10,477 bases of DNA from Acidobacteriaceae bacterium. GTDB lineage: Bacteria > Acidobacteriota > Terriglobia > Terriglobales > Acidobacteriaceae. The notes under the pieces were generated by a model, which was not told the origin of the DNA, ran no database searches, and was given only the letters and a program-made list of their open reading frames with translations. This document shows positions 473-10,477 of the stretch, piece by piece. Location: assembly GCA_003165855.1 (NCBI GenBank), contig PMXH01000404.1:1-10477 (forward strand). The letters run 5' to 3'. The number at the start of each line of letters is the position of its first letter. Within the stretch, counting starts at the first letter, position 1. The position numbers and the translations under genes are program-made.

Positions 473-1375
473 TCATTCCGACGGATGCGGCCCGGTAAAT
501 TCCGAGCAGCACGGCTTCTCCACCGGCTTGAACTCCATGAGCTCGATCCGCGAGAGATTGGGATCAAACAAGTTGAGCTGCCACTTCCCGTCCTTGCCCA
601 TCTGCGCCTTTTCCTCGCCGTGTGCTTTCCAACCGTGAGCTTCGAGAATGGCCTGCGCTTTCTTCATATCCACAACGCCCAGCGAGATGTGGTTCATCAC
701 ACCGGTCAGCCGCAAATCAGGATGTTCGGGCTGGTTCAGCATATATTCCAGCCAGTCCGTGCCATCCGGAACTTGCATCGCGACCCAGTCGGTCTCAGTG
801 GGCTTCATTCCTCCGTGCCAGTAGAGGCGAAATCCAAGCAGGTCGCGGTAGAAGTGATCTTCCGCGTCGCGGTTGTAAACCAGAAATCCCGCATGAATCA
901 TGTGCTGCGAAACCGCGGAATCAGGCGGCACGGCCGCTTTACCCTTGCCTCGCTCCACAAACTCGATGCGATGCCCTTCCGGGTCGGCCATGGCAAAGCT
1001 CAGACTATGCCCCGCATGTCCCTCGATCGCCGCCACCTTCACGCCTTTCGCAACCAGATACCTGCGCAGCGCGATGATGTTGTCGGTGGCGAAGGCCACG
1101 TGATCCATCCGGTCGGTCGCATTGGGATCGGGCGCGGCGCTGTAGCCAATCCACTGCCGGCCCACCATGTATCTCAGCAGCCCGCCAGACTCCACCGGCG
1201 CCGCGGAAGCCAGGCCGAGCGTGCCGCCGTAAAGCTTTTTTACTTCCTCCAGTTGAGTGGTGTAGAAGGAAACGTGATCAATCCCCGTGATGCGGGGCCT
1301 GTGGACAGGATGGGTTTGCGCGGGGGCACAAACTGCAAGGGCCCCGAAGGCAAGCAGGGAGAAGAGCTTTTTCAT
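473..1375 (-). CDS. Exported two-domain VOC (glyoxalase/dioxygenase-fold) protein
   Basis: The product has 300 residues. Residues 1-20 are a signal peptide with a probable cleavage at the APAQ-T region, so it should act in the periplasm or outside. Two vicinal-oxygen-chelate domains follow, at about 31-141 (GIDHVSFYTT to HRIEFVE) and about 158-282 (HAGFLVYNRD to RIELMEF). The usual VOC metal ligands appear in both: H34, H92 and E138 in the first; H161, E210, H229 and E278 in the second. Both domains could therefore hold a metal, as in glyoxalase I or extradiol dioxygenases. The substrate cannot be told. An extra CC pair lies at 289-290 in the C-terminal tail. It sits 51 bp downstream of the hydrolase gene and 44 bp upstream of the small unknown gene. 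The ATG at 1375 starts right at the signal peptide. Confidence 0.85.
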   Translation of the reverse strand: MKKLFSLLAFGALAVCAPAQTHPVHRPRITGIDHVSFYTTQLEEVKKLYGGTLGLASAAPVESGGLLRYMVGRQWIGYSAAPDPNATDRMDHVAFATDNIIALRRYLVAKGVKVAAIEGHAGHSLSFAMADPEGHRIEFVERGKGKAAVPPDSAVSQHMIHAGFLVYNRDAEDHFYRDLLGFRLYWHGGMKPTETDWVAMQVPDGTDWLEYMLNQPEHPDLRLTGVMNHISLGVVDMKKAQAILEAHGWKAHGEEKAQMGKDGKWQLNLFDPNLSRIELMEFKPVEKPCCSEFTGPHPSE

Positions 1376-1385
1376 GACGTACCCG

Positions 1386-1416
1386 ATTCTAGCGCGAGCC
1401 AGCCTTGGACGCTCAA
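1386..1416 (-). promoter_or_regulatory. Candidate promoter of the VOC gene
   Basis: Minus-strand TAGAAT (1386-1391) lies 10 nt upstream of the ATG at 1375. A partial -35, TTGAGC (1411-1416), lies 19 bp further up, which is longer than ideal. Transcription would start within about 3 nt of the start codon. It overlaps the gap to the upstream hydrolase gene, so the VOC gene may be transcribed on its own as well as by read-through. Confidence 0.4.
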
Positions 1417-1426
1417 TTACCCGTTG

Positions 1427-2233
1427 CTAGAGTCGCTCCAGAAACTGCCGCAGCAGCCTGCCGGCTTCTTCCGGTTGCTCCCAGGGCGAGTAATGGCCGG
1501 CTTTCGGAATCACGCGCAACTGGCTGCCGGAAATATGCTGCCGCATCAGCTCGGCTTCATTCACGCCGGTCAGCATGTCTTCCTCTCCGGTTACGAGCAG
1601 CGTGGGCACATTGATGGTCTTCAATGTATCCACCGAGTCGGGACGCTCCGCCATGCCACGCTGAACTTGCGCCACGTCCTCGGGCGACATCTTTCTCATC
1701 ATGTTCAACGCGCCAGCGACCAGGTCAGGCCGTGTTTCCCGCGTGCTCCTGCCCAGGAGCCGCGGAATCATGCTCTCGAAAAACGGCTCGGTGCCGCGTT
1801 CGAGGACGTCGTTCGCCGCCTGCAGCCGTCCAGTTCGGGCTTCCGCAGAGTCGGCAGGCGCTTTCGTATTGCAGAGACCGAGCGCCGCCACTCGACCCCG
1901 ATGTCTTCGCCAGAACTCGAACAGCGCATATCCGCCAATCGACACTCCAACCAGCGGAGCGCGGCCGATATCGGCATCGTCCATCACACGGGCGAGGTCG
2001 GCTGCGTGTTTGTCCATTGTGGCCGGACCTTGGCCCACGCCGGAATCTCCATGGCCGCGCAGATCGGGAAGAATGACGCGGTAGCGCGTGGCCAGAACCT
2101 GAGCCACCGGCAGCCAAAATTCATGATTCGCGGGAAAAGGATGCAGCAGAACTACCGGCGGGCCCTCGCCCAGCACCCGAAAGAAGATCTCCGCGTCATC
2201 GCTCTTGATTTGGTGGGAGTCCATGCTCTGCAT
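1427..2233 (-). CDS. Alpha/beta-fold hydrolase
   Basis: The product has 268 residues and the full alpha/beta-hydrolase layout: oxyanion-hole strand VVLLHPFP (27-34), the DLRGHGDSG segment (57-65), nucleophile elbow GVSIGG with S98, acid D219 in VTGEEDM, and H247 in KAGHYS. Length and motifs match soluble esterase/pimeloyl-ester-hydrolase-like members, but the substrate is not predictable. There is no signal peptide, so it is cytoplasmic. Two ATGs are possible, 2233 and 2224 (three residues later); neither has a strong ribosome-binding site. It lies 52 bp after the PspC gene and before the exported VOC gene, all in one direction, so co-transcription is possible. Confidence 0.9.
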   Translation of the reverse strand: MQSMDSHQIKSDDAEIFFRVLGEGPPVVLLHPFPANHEFWLPVAQVLATRYRVILPDLRGHGDSGVGQGPATMDKHAADLARVMDDADIGRAPLVGVSIGGYALFEFWRRHRGRVAALGLCNTKAPADSAEARTGRLQAANDVLERGTEPFFESMIPRLLGRSTRETRPDLVAGALNMMRKMSPEDVAQVQRGMAERPDSVDTLKTINVPTLLVTGEEDMLTGVNEAELMRQHISGSQLRVIPKAGHYSPWEQPEEAGRLLRQFLERL

Positions 2234-2285
2234 GCGCGAGATTCAATCACAAATGATCTGCATCCCGCTTTCAGGGGCCGTCAGA

Positions 2286-2600
2286 TTACGAATTCGTCAC
2301 GCGCTGTGCTCCTGCCGGCGCCGTCAGCAACAGCGGCTCTTCCGGCATCACGATCCAGGCGATGGGATAAGCGAGCAATCCTATACCCGTCATGAAGGAT
2401 GCGAGCAACCACATCAGCCGGACTAAGACCACGTCAATATCAAAGTACTCGGCGAAACCCAGGCAGACGCCCGCAATCTTGCGTCCCTGCCGCGGCCGCA
2501 CCAGCCGTTTGCGAGCTACCGACGCGCCCACGCGAATGCCGCAATAAGCACAAACCGCCGCATCGTCCTGAATCACTTTGCCGCAATAGTTGCAATACAT
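2286..2600 (-). CDS. PspC-domain membrane protein with N-terminal zinc ribbon
   Basis: The product has 104 residues. Residues 1-22 form a zinc ribbon with two CxxC pairs (C3/C6 and C17/C20). A PspC domain follows (about 31-90), with the family's RKIAGVCLGFAEYFDID motif and a hydrophobic hairpin (about 58-84) ending in MPEEP. PspC proteins are small inner-membrane proteins linked to the phage-shock or envelope-stress response. Here the ribbon would face the cytoplasm and could bind metal or a partner. The start is well supported: GAGGG at 2608-2612 lies 7 nt before the ATG at 2600. It heads the minus-strand run and is divergent from the antitoxin gene at 2689. No other psp genes (pspA/B/F) are in view. 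Confidence 0.9.
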   Translation of the reverse strand: MYCNYCGKVIQDDAAVCAYCGIRVGASVARKRLVRPRQGRKIAGVCLGFAEYFDIDVVLVRLMWLLASFMTGIGLLAYPIAWIVMPEEPLLLTAPAGAQRVTNS

Positions 2601-2934: not shown

Positions 2935-3249
2935 ATGGCCATCGCCGCGTGTTTAGTCGACACGAATATTCTGCTCCGTATAGCGAGGCGTTCCGATCCG
3001 CAACACAAAGTCATTGATGCCGCTTTCGCCAAATTGGCTTTAGAAGGCACAATTCTGCTCTACACGCACCAAAATATCGCCGAATTGTGGAACGTGATGA
3101 CACGGCCCGTGACCCGCAATGGCTTTGGGTTGGCGGCAGCCGAGGCTGAACGCGAAGTCCGCGTGATCGAGGCCGGCATGAGCCTTTTGCCAGACAGCGA
3201 GGCTATCTATCGGGAGTGGCGCAGGATCGTCGTGTACTCGTTTTCCAGC
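2935..3249 (+). pseudogene. vapC: VapC-like PIN-domain ribonuclease toxin, truncated
   Basis: About 105 residues match a PIN-domain toxin: CLVDTNILLR with the first catalytic aspartate D9, and NIAELWNVMTRP with E50. Homology fades after REWRRIVVYSFSS, where related toxins continue with a YSVSG-HDA-LVA stretch and a final FN-DF motif carrying the third and fourth acidic residues. Those are absent in all three forward frames. The frame stays open to 3690 only because it then runs antisense through the 3' part of the TPR gene, giving an unrelated Arg/Pro/Ser-rich tail. Loss of the second half of the active site implies a dead nuclease. The break lies 10-25 bp before the TPR stop codon, so a deletion or recombination joined the two. 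The exact break point is approximate. Confidence 0.7.
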
Positions 3250-3265
3250 CCGATCAGACGCCCCC

Positions 3266-4528
3266 TCACTCTCGATAGGCTTCCCGGATGTGCGCCCGAG
3301 CTGTTTCCGCAGGAGGAGTGCTGCCGTTTTCGGCTAGGACGGTCTGATACTTCTTCATCGCCAAATCGCGCTTCTGCAGCAGGTCGTACATTTCGCCGGC
3401 GGCGAGGTTGGCCTTCTGCAGCGTCTCCGGGTCGGCGTCCGGAGCTTCACTTACCAGTTCATACGCGGCCACGGCTCCGGCATAATCTTTCTGGCTGCGC
3501 AGTAGCTCACCCAAGCCCCAAGCCGCCATTTCATAGTGCAGGGCGCCATACTTCCCTTCCCGGCCGTTCTGCCACACTTTCCGATAGCCCGCCGCAGCCT
3601 CCTGCGCGTGGCCGCCTGCACGCTGCAGGTTCGCTTCCTCCAGCGGAAATAAATAATTCCTGGAATAACGTGCTGCCAAATCGTGCATGAGGACGCGCGC
3701 CTCGTCGAAGCGGTGCTCGCGCCGCAGGAACAGGCTCAGCACGACTCTCGCGTCGACGCTGTTTTCTCCCTTGCTATCGGCTACCTCGCGCAGGTATTCG
3801 AGACCTTTTTCTTTCGTCCCGCTCAGTCCCACCAGCGCCACTGCGGCCTTCACGCTCCAGGGCAGGCTGCCCATTACGTAATTGTGAGTGCCCACGACCA
3901 GTTTCGCGTCCACGTAGCGAGGATCGAGTTCGAGCACGCGTTCGTGGTCATGGCGCGCGCCCACAGCGTTGCGCAGAGCGGAGAACCAGGCTCGCTCCAC
4001 CAGCGCCGTATACAGCGCAAACTGCGCCCGGGTAACGCCGCGGGCGTAGAGTGCGTCCACGTTGTTGGGATTCGCCTTGAGTTGCTGCTCTTCGAGGTTC
4101 TCGGCGCGCTCGACCAGTTGTTTGATCCGGTCCTTCACCTGGGGATCGGCGGTCCGGTGCGCCTGGCCGATGAAGCTGTCGTTGGCATATTCGCCGGTGT
4201 TCATTGCGCCCATGCGATAAAGCTCGCGCATCAGAACTGTGGTCAGAAGATGATTTACCGCGGAAGGATCGCTGGGCCGCCGATCCATGATCTTTTCAAA
4301 CTCCTGGATTGAGCGGTCATAATCCAGGTTGTAGAAGTGGTCGAAGGCGGCATCGACCAGCGGATCGTGCTCGGCAGAAGCGGCTTGGGCTGGATTCGGG
4401 GTGCTTCCCGCTACAGCGTGGGTTTGAGCGTCGCCCCGCATCGACAGCAGCCAGAAGAAGACGAGGCATAACAGCGCTCTCTGTTGAACTAAGCGTTTCA
4501 CCGATGTCAGGCTCGACTGCATCCCCAC
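3266..4528 (-). CDS. Exported TPR-repeat protein, function unknown
   Basis: The product has 420 residues when started at GTG 4528. AGGG, 6 nt upstream of the GTG, favours this start; ATG at 4522 is the alternative, with GGTGGGG directly before it. Residues about 14-35 are a signal peptide ending GDAQ, so the protein is probably periplasmic or extracellular. The mature part is alpha-helical with tetratricopeptide-like repeats: about 56-90 (AAFDHFYNLDYDRSIQEFEKIMDRRPSDPSA), 157-205, 258-290, 295-325 and 333-395. Such solenoids bind protein partners; no catalytic domain is visible. A -10-like TAAAGT lies at 4548-4553 on the minus strand. The gene is divergent from the zinc-ribbon gene at 4827, and its 3' end abuts the truncated toxin. 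Confidence 0.85.
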   Translation of the reverse strand: MGMQSSLTSVKRLVQQRALLCLVFFWLLSMRGDAQTHAVAGSTPNPAQAASAEHDPLVDAAFDHFYNLDYDRSIQEFEKIMDRRPSDPSAVNHLLTTVLMRELYRMGAMNTGEYANDSFIGQAHRTADPQVKDRIKQLVERAENLEEQQLKANPNNVDALYARGVTRAQFALYTALVERAWFSALRNAVGARHDHERVLELDPRYVDAKLVVGTHNYVMGSLPWSVKAAVALVGLSGTKEKGLEYLREVADSKGENSVDARVVLSLFLRREHRFDEARVLMHDLAARYSRNYLFPLEEANLQRAGGHAQEAAAGYRKVWQNGREGKYGALHYEMAAWGLGELLRSQKDYAGAVAAYELVSEAPDADPETLQKANLAAGEMYDLLQKRDLAMKKYQTVLAENGSTPPAETARAHIREAYRE

Positions 4529-9500: not shown

Positions 9501-9506
9501 TACAAT
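9501..9506 (+). promoter_or_regulatory. Candidate -10 box of the HPF-sigma gene
   Basis: TACAAT at 9501-9506 would give a start near 9513 and a leader of about 46 nt with the GAGG site in place. A TTGCCA at 9481-9486 is only 14 bp upstream, too close for a normal -35, so this is a weak candidate. Confidence 0.3.
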
Positions 9507-9558
9507 CGCGTTAGATAGCACTGGGTTGCACCGCTTCGTTGGCAAGCCTGAGGTGCTC

Positions 9559-10477
9559 ATGAACGTCCACATTAGTTATCGCCTTCATAAAACTCCCGCC
9601 GTAGAAAAAGACATCCAACACCAGATCGACAAACTGCAGAAACGGCTGCAAGTCTTCCGTCCTGACCTGATTCATTTGAAAGGCACAGTCGAAGAACTCT
9701 CCCCGCGCGAGGGCACAAGCGTTTCGCTCAACCTGCGCTTGCCTTCCGGACAGATGGCAGTCCAGGCCAAAGCCTCAACCGCCGCCGCCGCGGTGAAAAG
9801 TGCATTCGAAGACTTGCTGCAGCAAGTCAACAAACATAAGGAACTGTTGCGCTCCACCCACAAGTGGCCGCGCCGGAGGAATGAGGCATCGGAACGCCAC
9901 AACGCTTCCGTCCCCTTCGAGCAGACTCTGGCCGCGGTATTTCCAGCTACGGTTTCCGCCGACGACGTGCGTTCGTATGTCAACGTGAATCTTTCGCGCC
10001 TGGAACGCTTTGTGGAGCGCGAAATCTATTTTCGCGAAACCTCCGACCAGGTAGCGCCCGAGTCGATCAGCAAGGAAGAAGTGATTGACGAAACCATCGC
10101 CGCCGCCCTCGATGAGAGTCAGGAGAAGCCTGAGCGTCTTGCCCTCGAACCCTGGCTCTACCGCCTGGCTCTGAATGCGCTCGATCAGCTCTCTCGTCCC
10201 GAAGGCACCAACGGCAGCGCCGTGCGCCTGGAAGAGTCGGCCCGCAAGCAAAACGTCCGGGCCAGCGACGAGCCTGAACTGCAATTCTATCAGCCTGATG
10301 AGGCCATTACAGAAGAGACAATTATCGCTGACGACCGCGTGGCCACGCCCGAACAGATCGTCGGTTCGGACGAGATGATGCACCTCATCGCCTCCGCTCT
10401 GCTCGATGTCACCCCTGCCCAGCGCGAGGCCTTCATCCTGCACGCGGTCGAAGGTTTCGGCGTCGACGAAATCTCCG
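9559..10477 (+). CDS. HPF/RaiA (S30AE) domain fused to a sigma-70-like factor, partial at window end
   Basis: From the ATG at 9559, with GAGG at 9550-9553 five nt upstream, the frame is open for 306 codons and leaves the window. Residues 1-102 look like a hibernation-promoting-factor domain: MNVHISYRLHKTPAVEKDI, an EELSPREGTSVSLNLRLPSGQMAVQAKAS beta-region, and a closing helix KSAFEDLLQQVNKHKELL. Such domains bind the 30S subunit and stop translation. A basic/polar linker (103-118) follows. Residues about 119-213 resemble sigma region 2 (ISKEEVIDETIAAALD and WLYRLALNALDQLSR). An acidic linker (about 214-262) leads into the start of region 4 (TPEQIVGSDEMMHLIASALL, VTPAQREAFILHAVEGFGVDEIS). The C-terminal dimerisation domain of long HPF is not seen. 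The gene is divergent from the M20 gene. The HPF call is firm; the sigma call rests on motifs. Confidence 0.8.
   Translation, partial: MNVHISYRLHKTPAVEKDIQHQIDKLQKRLQVFRPDLIHLKGTVEELSPREGTSVSLNLRLPSGQMAVQAKASTAAAAVKSAFEDLLQQVNKHKELLRSTHKWPRRRNEASERHNASVPFEQTLAAVFPATVSADDVRSYVNVNLSRLERFVEREIYFRETSDQVAPESISKEEVIDETIAAALDESQEKPERLALEPWLYRLALNALDQLSRPEGTNGSAVRLEESARKQNVRASDEPELQFYQPDEAITEETIIADDRVATPEQIVGSDEMMHLIASALLDVTPAQREAFILHAVEGFGVDEIS

Follow-up and report, generated by a model that had tools for sequence, protein, structure and literature searches.

An S30AE/HPF domain joined to a sigma-like module

What does a protein do that begins as a ribosome-hibernation factor and ends like a sigma factor? 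The window analysed here (10,477 nucleotides) is the entire contig C214 of an Acidobacteriaceae genome assembled to 4.87 Mb in 610 contigs (77% complete), and its 3' end carries such a gene. The original prediction had been that a single uninterrupted frame holds both an HPF and a sigma-like part, and this reading stands: the frame starts with the ATG at 9559, is preceded by GAGG at 9550-9553 and remains open for 306 codons up to the contig end. Going by its relatives, the complete protein is expected to have about 347 aa. The features of the locus are:

9501..9506, + strand: TACAAT box inside the conserved upstream sequence GGGTGTACAAT, a possible -10 element
9550..9553, + strand: GAGG, likely ribosome-binding site, read directly; GAGG.GCT is kept before the start in relatives
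9559..10477, + strand: 5' part of the fusion gene, 306 codons, an open frame that runs off the contig end
9559..9864, + strand: S30AE/HPF module, residues 1-102 (Pfam, 35.5 bits; profile match to HPF chains)
9820..9852, + strand: basic end of the HPF helix, residues 88-98, QQVNKHKELLR, aligning with RQL.KHK..L of solved HPFs
9958..10197, + strand: sigma region 2-like module (residues 134-213) in which Asp replaces the region 2.2 Gln (ECF alignment; predicted helices)
10291..10302, + strand: residues 245-248, the family's hallmark linker motif QPDE
10369..10477, + strand: sigma region 4-like module, residues 271-306; its recognition helix falls past the contig end

Upstream of the frame, a housekeeping-type promoter could not be assigned, since the TACAAT box is present and candidate -35 elements occur only at poor spacing. 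In the predicted fold of the leader (9517-9557), AGCACT can pair with an AGGTGCT that contains the ribosome-binding site. Because this predicted fold is seen again in about a dozen of 33 folded leaders, it hints at translational control.

Pfam matched Ribosomal_S30AE to residues 9-96 of the truncated window protein (35.5 bits, cut-off 23.7), while Sigma70_r4_2 (20.0 bits) and PhyR_sigma-like (23.3 bits) both scored below their cut-offs and Sigma70_r2 gave no match to the truncated protein. NCBIfam ECF models matched residues 172-305, all far below their cut-offs. Relatives complete this picture. Several full-length ones carry S30AE and Sigma70_r4_2 in one protein, both above the curated cut-offs (for example L152, 35.2 and 34.9 bits; L151, 45.2 and 31.2 bits; L159, 32.0 and 26.2 bits), and in a further relative, L025, S30AE is slightly below its cut-off at 22.3 bits. 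Among 31 aligned relatives, at E<=0.01, Sigma70_r4_2 was found in 31, S30AE in 29, PhyR_sigma-like in 27 and Sigma70_r2 in 2. The expectation that PF02482 and both sigma models would be found was thus borne out for the HPF domain, for region 4 in relatives and hardly at all for region 2, which is recognised mainly through ECF alignment and one predicted model and not through the Pfam region 2 model.

A profile built from the 31 relatives gave as its best match among solved structures the ECF sigma 7qh5 (E 5.3e-15, positions 137-330); PhyR-type proteins were also among the matches, and the solved HPF chains 5njt and 4v8h matched positions 1 to about 105 with E of about 3e-8. The N-terminal S30AE domain and the basic KHK helix are common to the fusion and to solved HPF/RaiA (YfiA) proteins (PF02482): the helix LlrqlKKHKellR of the family aligns with 4v8h, 4hei and 5njt, KHK is kept, and the positions of K94 and L97 are nearly invariant among relatives. 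Long HPFs end in a C-terminal dimerisation domain; in the fusion this domain is absent and sigma-like modules come after S30AE in its place, and we therefore rejected a dimerisation domain as the identity of the C-terminal part. No Pfam match to a receiver domain was found in the window protein or the scanned relatives.

The predicted model of one relative, L004, contains three ordered modules, namely HPF (about 1-96), sigma 2 (about 134-212) and sigma 4 (about 271-337), separated by disordered linkers (97-129 and 214-269). With a mean pLDDT of 62.6 and a pTM of 0.31, the individual modules of this model are believable and their relative placement is not.

Close relatives were collected by scanning named genomes with peptide patterns of the window protein, an approach that reaches close relatives only. 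It yielded 27 loci, which belong to Acidobacteriaceae, to Candidatus Sulfotelmatobacter and to acidobacterial or Terriglobia MAGs, with best-segment identities to the window protein of 61-91%. Runs of N lie inside the gene in four of them (L003, L007, L013 and L027). Relatives with an unbroken frame stop at 346-356 aa and have a complete helix-turn-helix, so that region 4 is complete in the family; the 3' end of the window gene itself lies beyond the contig. There is no frameshift between residues 102 and 119, which had been named as a refutation, since the frame is shared by numerous separate contigs. These comparisons confirm that one frame encodes an S30AE/HPF domain and, after it, modules resembling sigma regions 2 and 4.

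The sigma-like part has lost promoter-contact residues

In the original prediction the tail was a promoter-recognition module. We compared 36 fusions (19 Terriglobia representatives, chosen from 41 distinct Terriglobia fusion loci, 16 from other classes, and L165, of which a contig end leaves the sigma part only) with 17 ECF controls, consisting of 10 proteins from the own genome and 7 from L144-L150, among which L144-L146 are near-copies. Eight of the 18 own-genome frames were left out of the controls by eye: L067 is short, L072, L073, L075 and L079 are response regulators, and L074, L077 and L078 belong to another ECF type.

Regions 2 and 4 of the fusions are in ECF order, both by alignment and by profile. 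However, the fusions differ from ECF sigma-70 factors (PF08281 and others) in having lost DNA-contact and region 2.2 residues and gained a linker motif. The region 4.2 helix has a mean net charge of -0.03 (-3 to 2, n=36) in fusions versus 4.18 (3 to 5, n=17) in ECFs; for region 2.4 the values are -0.09 (-3 to 4, n=35) and 3.35 (2 to 5, 17 ECFs). The p-values from the comparison of fusions with controls (7e-8 and 4e-9) count related proteins as independent. In one fusion region 2.4 carries +4, within the ECF range, and the fusion L167 is without the 2.3-2.4 stretch in the alignment. Over the whole post-HPF part, net charge ran from -18 to -1 in 19 fusions versus -7 to +13 in 10 ECFs. The region 2.2 Gln, present in 17/17 control ECFs, is found in 0/36 fusions, which have Asp (32) or Asn (4) instead, and T, S or N at the 'GTV' position of region 4.2 likewise occurs in 17/17 ECFs versus 0/36 fusions. 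The motif QPD shows the reverse distribution, with 31/36 fusions versus 0/17 ECF controls. The fusions have kept the hydrophobic cores and, in 29 of 36 cases, the last Arg of RAR in region 4.2. Since the 2.4 and 4.2 stretches, basic in ECFs, have on average lost their positive charge and no fusion retains the region 2.2 Gln, a working, promoter-reading sigma factor is unlikely on the sequence evidence, and we abandoned the promoter-recognition module as leading model.

This combination of features has a known counterpart. The PhyR sigma-like domain (PF22233) is an anti-anti-sigma mimic of Alphaproteobacteria, with NepR as its partner. The fusion shares with it an ECF fold in which the contacts to promoter and core have degenerated, and the PF22233 model matches 27/31 relatives; it differs in having HPF instead of a receiver domain and in belonging to another phylum. 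In the available part of PMC8103513, PhyR is described as correctly structured for an ECF while its promoter- and core-binding regions are degenerate.

Distribution and history in Acidobacteriota

The original prediction had allowed for uncharacterised homologues, and our survey, which covered Acidobacteriota genomes, found them. With alignment A1, among 299 genomes sampled from the class, at least 15 showed a full-length fusion, the own genome included. Four further, diverged fusions with both modules in frame (G015, G045, G006 and G281) bring the class total to at least 19/299 sampled genomes. With the wider alignment A2, at least 22 of the 396 phylum genomes proved to carry the fusion, among them members of many families beyond the class; one more genome, G500, has a fusion cut by a contig end. 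For the class of G632, at least 3/162 genomes passed E 1e-20, the only ones to do so among the matches listed. Survey counts are lower bounds, based on the first 5 or 7 candidates scored per genome among the matches listed. The fusion is thus spread in a patchy manner across Acidobacteriota, a phylum of abundant soil bacteria.

In a tree of sigma modules, a branch with 99/99 support separates the 36 fusions from the 17 ECFs. In the HPF-domain tree, Terriglobia HPFs that are short and stand alone branch from within the fusions, and well-supported branches force at least four label changes; the tree includes four of the nine long HPFs that were looked for, and several of its branches are long. 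The nested short HPFs without the sigma-like arm are L049-L059 and L109, and one of them, L053, adjoins a baeRF gene. As the sigma modules form one clade and short HPFs are nested among the fusions, the trees suggest one old fusion followed by several later losses of the arm, within the limits set by long branches and few controls.

All three modules are under purifying selection, with median dN/dS of 0.063 for HPF, 0.103 for sigma 2 and 0.165 for sigma 4, the least constrained module (165, 155 and 200 of 253 pairs, respectively, those with dS between 0.1 and 2). The low values for sigma 2 and sigma 4 indicate that the sigma-like part is not decaying.

Another S30AE gene was found in 24 of 35 fusion genomes, among them the own genome, which also encodes a separate long HPF of 209 aa. 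In the remaining 11, five of which are at least 90% complete, the fusion was the only S30AE gene found, and for this reason it is probably a main hibernation factor there. PF02482 at E<=0.001 misses the fusion in 5/35 genomes (G147, G224, G278, G143 and G418); the HPF module of the fusion is divergent in sequence.

A Balon-like gene usually lies downstream in Terriglobia

At 25 of 26 named loci a baeRF family 10 gene lies directly downstream of the fusion; at the remaining one, L009, only 316 bases are left. The same arrangement, with a baeRF gene directly downstream, holds at 9 of 11 further Terriglobia loci. When 19 fusion genomes were scanned, a baeRF10 match was found in 14 and lay beside the fusion in 13; there was none in the own genome, G236, G119, G281 or G015. 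Outside Terriglobia, a baeRF gene was found near 1 of 16 fusions read, that of L151. The nearest solved sequence to the family 10 neighbour is Balon Rv2629 (8v9k), a weak match with E 0.16, and judged by sequence the neighbour is a distant relative of this hibernation factor. Its position beside an HPF-containing gene recalls other members of the aeRF1 superfamily, since the accessible text of PMC6514570 and PMC10901736 reports baeRF/Balon genes adjoining HPF/RaiA.

Anti-sigma-type genes are seen at few loci. At L151, a 95-aa ZAS-like protein with an HxxxCxxC motif is encoded between fusion and baeRF (zf-HC2, 17.4 bits, below the cut-off of 22.2), and the order fusion, ZAS-like, baeRF is repeated in L171 of the same genus, where baeRF was judged by eye. 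The ZAS-like neighbour was seen in this genus only, and at most loci the fusion has no anti-sigma neighbour. A STAS protein adjoins the fusion at L164 (73.7 bits) and, by reading, at L166 and L172.

Other neighbours were recorded by eye. L035 and L038 have no baeRF and carry downstream a frame beginning MIHEILPVGPLQCNCSVIGDE that resembles a metallo-beta-lactamase-fold hydrolase. Outside Terriglobia, L152, L153, L155, L157, L158, L161 and L162 have an aspartate aminotransferase-like frame after the fusion, and some of these have a YhaM-like nuclease frame before it.

Other frames in the window

A PIN-domain frame at 2935-3690 (27.5 bits) covers profile positions 2-84 of 120 and continues without PIN similarity; lying antisense to a TPR gene, it resembles a toxin-type gene in decay. 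A 636-aa open frame at 485-2395 (+) is antisense to glyoxalase-like and alpha/beta hydrolase genes and is probably not a gene.

A hibernation factor with a docking arm?

As far as the literature searched goes (open-licence papers), the HPF-sigma-like fusion is a previously undescribed architecture: we found no description of it, in agreement with the original statement that no characterised protein is built this way. The fusion is mentioned neither in the available sections of PMC6514570 nor in those of PMC10901736, the latter of which list alternative sigma-70 factors among operon neighbours, and PMC11102965 contains none of the five terms on sigma or fusion that were looked for. The nearest precedent is HibA, an HPF-CBS fusion of archaea described in the accessible part of PMC13324472. 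Both proteins join an HPF/RaiA-like domain to a second module, which in HibA makes a hibernation factor; the second module is CBS in the archaeal protein and ECF-like in the bacterial one.

Our preferred reading, to which we assign a probability of about 0.48, is that the protein is a ribosome-hibernation factor whose C-terminal pseudo-sigma arm docks a partner that normally recognises sigma. From homology and the conserved basic helix, we infer that the HPF part would bind the 30S decoding region of idle ribosomes. In Terriglobia the Balon-like baeRF protein from the neighbouring gene may act alongside it by occupying the A site. The arm would be an ECF fold of regions 2 and 4, maintained by selection and stripped of its promoter-reading surface. 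Tethered to the ribosome by flexible linkers, it would dock a sigma-recognising protein in the way that PhyR docks NepR, and an anti-sigma factor is the likeliest candidate. The signal would presumably run from ribosome to partner, the quantity of idle ribosome setting how much partner is held. A more specific version of the docking reading, a ribosome-sensing switch in which the pseudo-sigma titrates an anti-sigma factor and its availability is set by the seating of HPF on the idle ribosome, strikes us as doubtful at present.

Four alternatives were weighed. The arm could instead be structural, a sigma fold that contacts the ribosome or Balon and strengthens hibernation with no link to transcription. 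The hibernation-type neighbour in Terriglobia fits this idea, HibA offers a precedent (PMC13324472, available part), and short armless HPFs nest inside the fusion clade, implying that the arm is dispensable in some lineages. However, the conserved order of sigma 2, linker and sigma 4 would then be a coincidence, as would the anti-sigma-type neighbours in a few genomes, and an acidic module is unfavourable for rRNA contact; we regard a purely structural arm as unlikely.

Docking could also involve RNA polymerase itself. Region 2.2 is the main core-binding surface of sigma, and in the fusions it keeps its shape and its acidic neighbours (DE/NE), as would be expected if the pseudo-sigma bound core without reading promoters and parked idle polymerase beside idle ribosomes. 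Yet the central Gln of region 2.2, which is important for core binding, is the very residue replaced in 36/36 fusions, making polymerase docking quite improbable.

A working ECF sigma, held or released by idle ribosomes through its HPF domain and so switching a transcription programme, would account for the collinear regions 2 and 4 and their purifying selection, for 7qh5 as the best solved match, and for the ZAS-like and STAS genes beside a few copies. Against it stand the neutralised regions 2.4 and 4.2, the loss of the region 2.2 Gln and the TACAAT box before the window gene, and we give this reading little credence. An artefact of assembly or gene calling that joined an HPF gene to a sigma gene might be suspected from the contig end that cuts the window gene and the runs of N in four relatives, but is ruled out for practical purposes, because the two parts are joined in frame in the same way on dozens of separate contigs, which come from several families and include the single-contig genomes G227 and G439.

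Hibernation is usually linked to transcription via messengers such as ppGpp. Under our preferred reading, a coupling of the two through a sigma mimic is possible, and a protein combining a ribosome-idling domain with such a mimic would directly wire hibernation to transcription control. If the partner switch were true, a sigma regulon would respond directly to ribosome idleness, with no small-molecule messenger in between.
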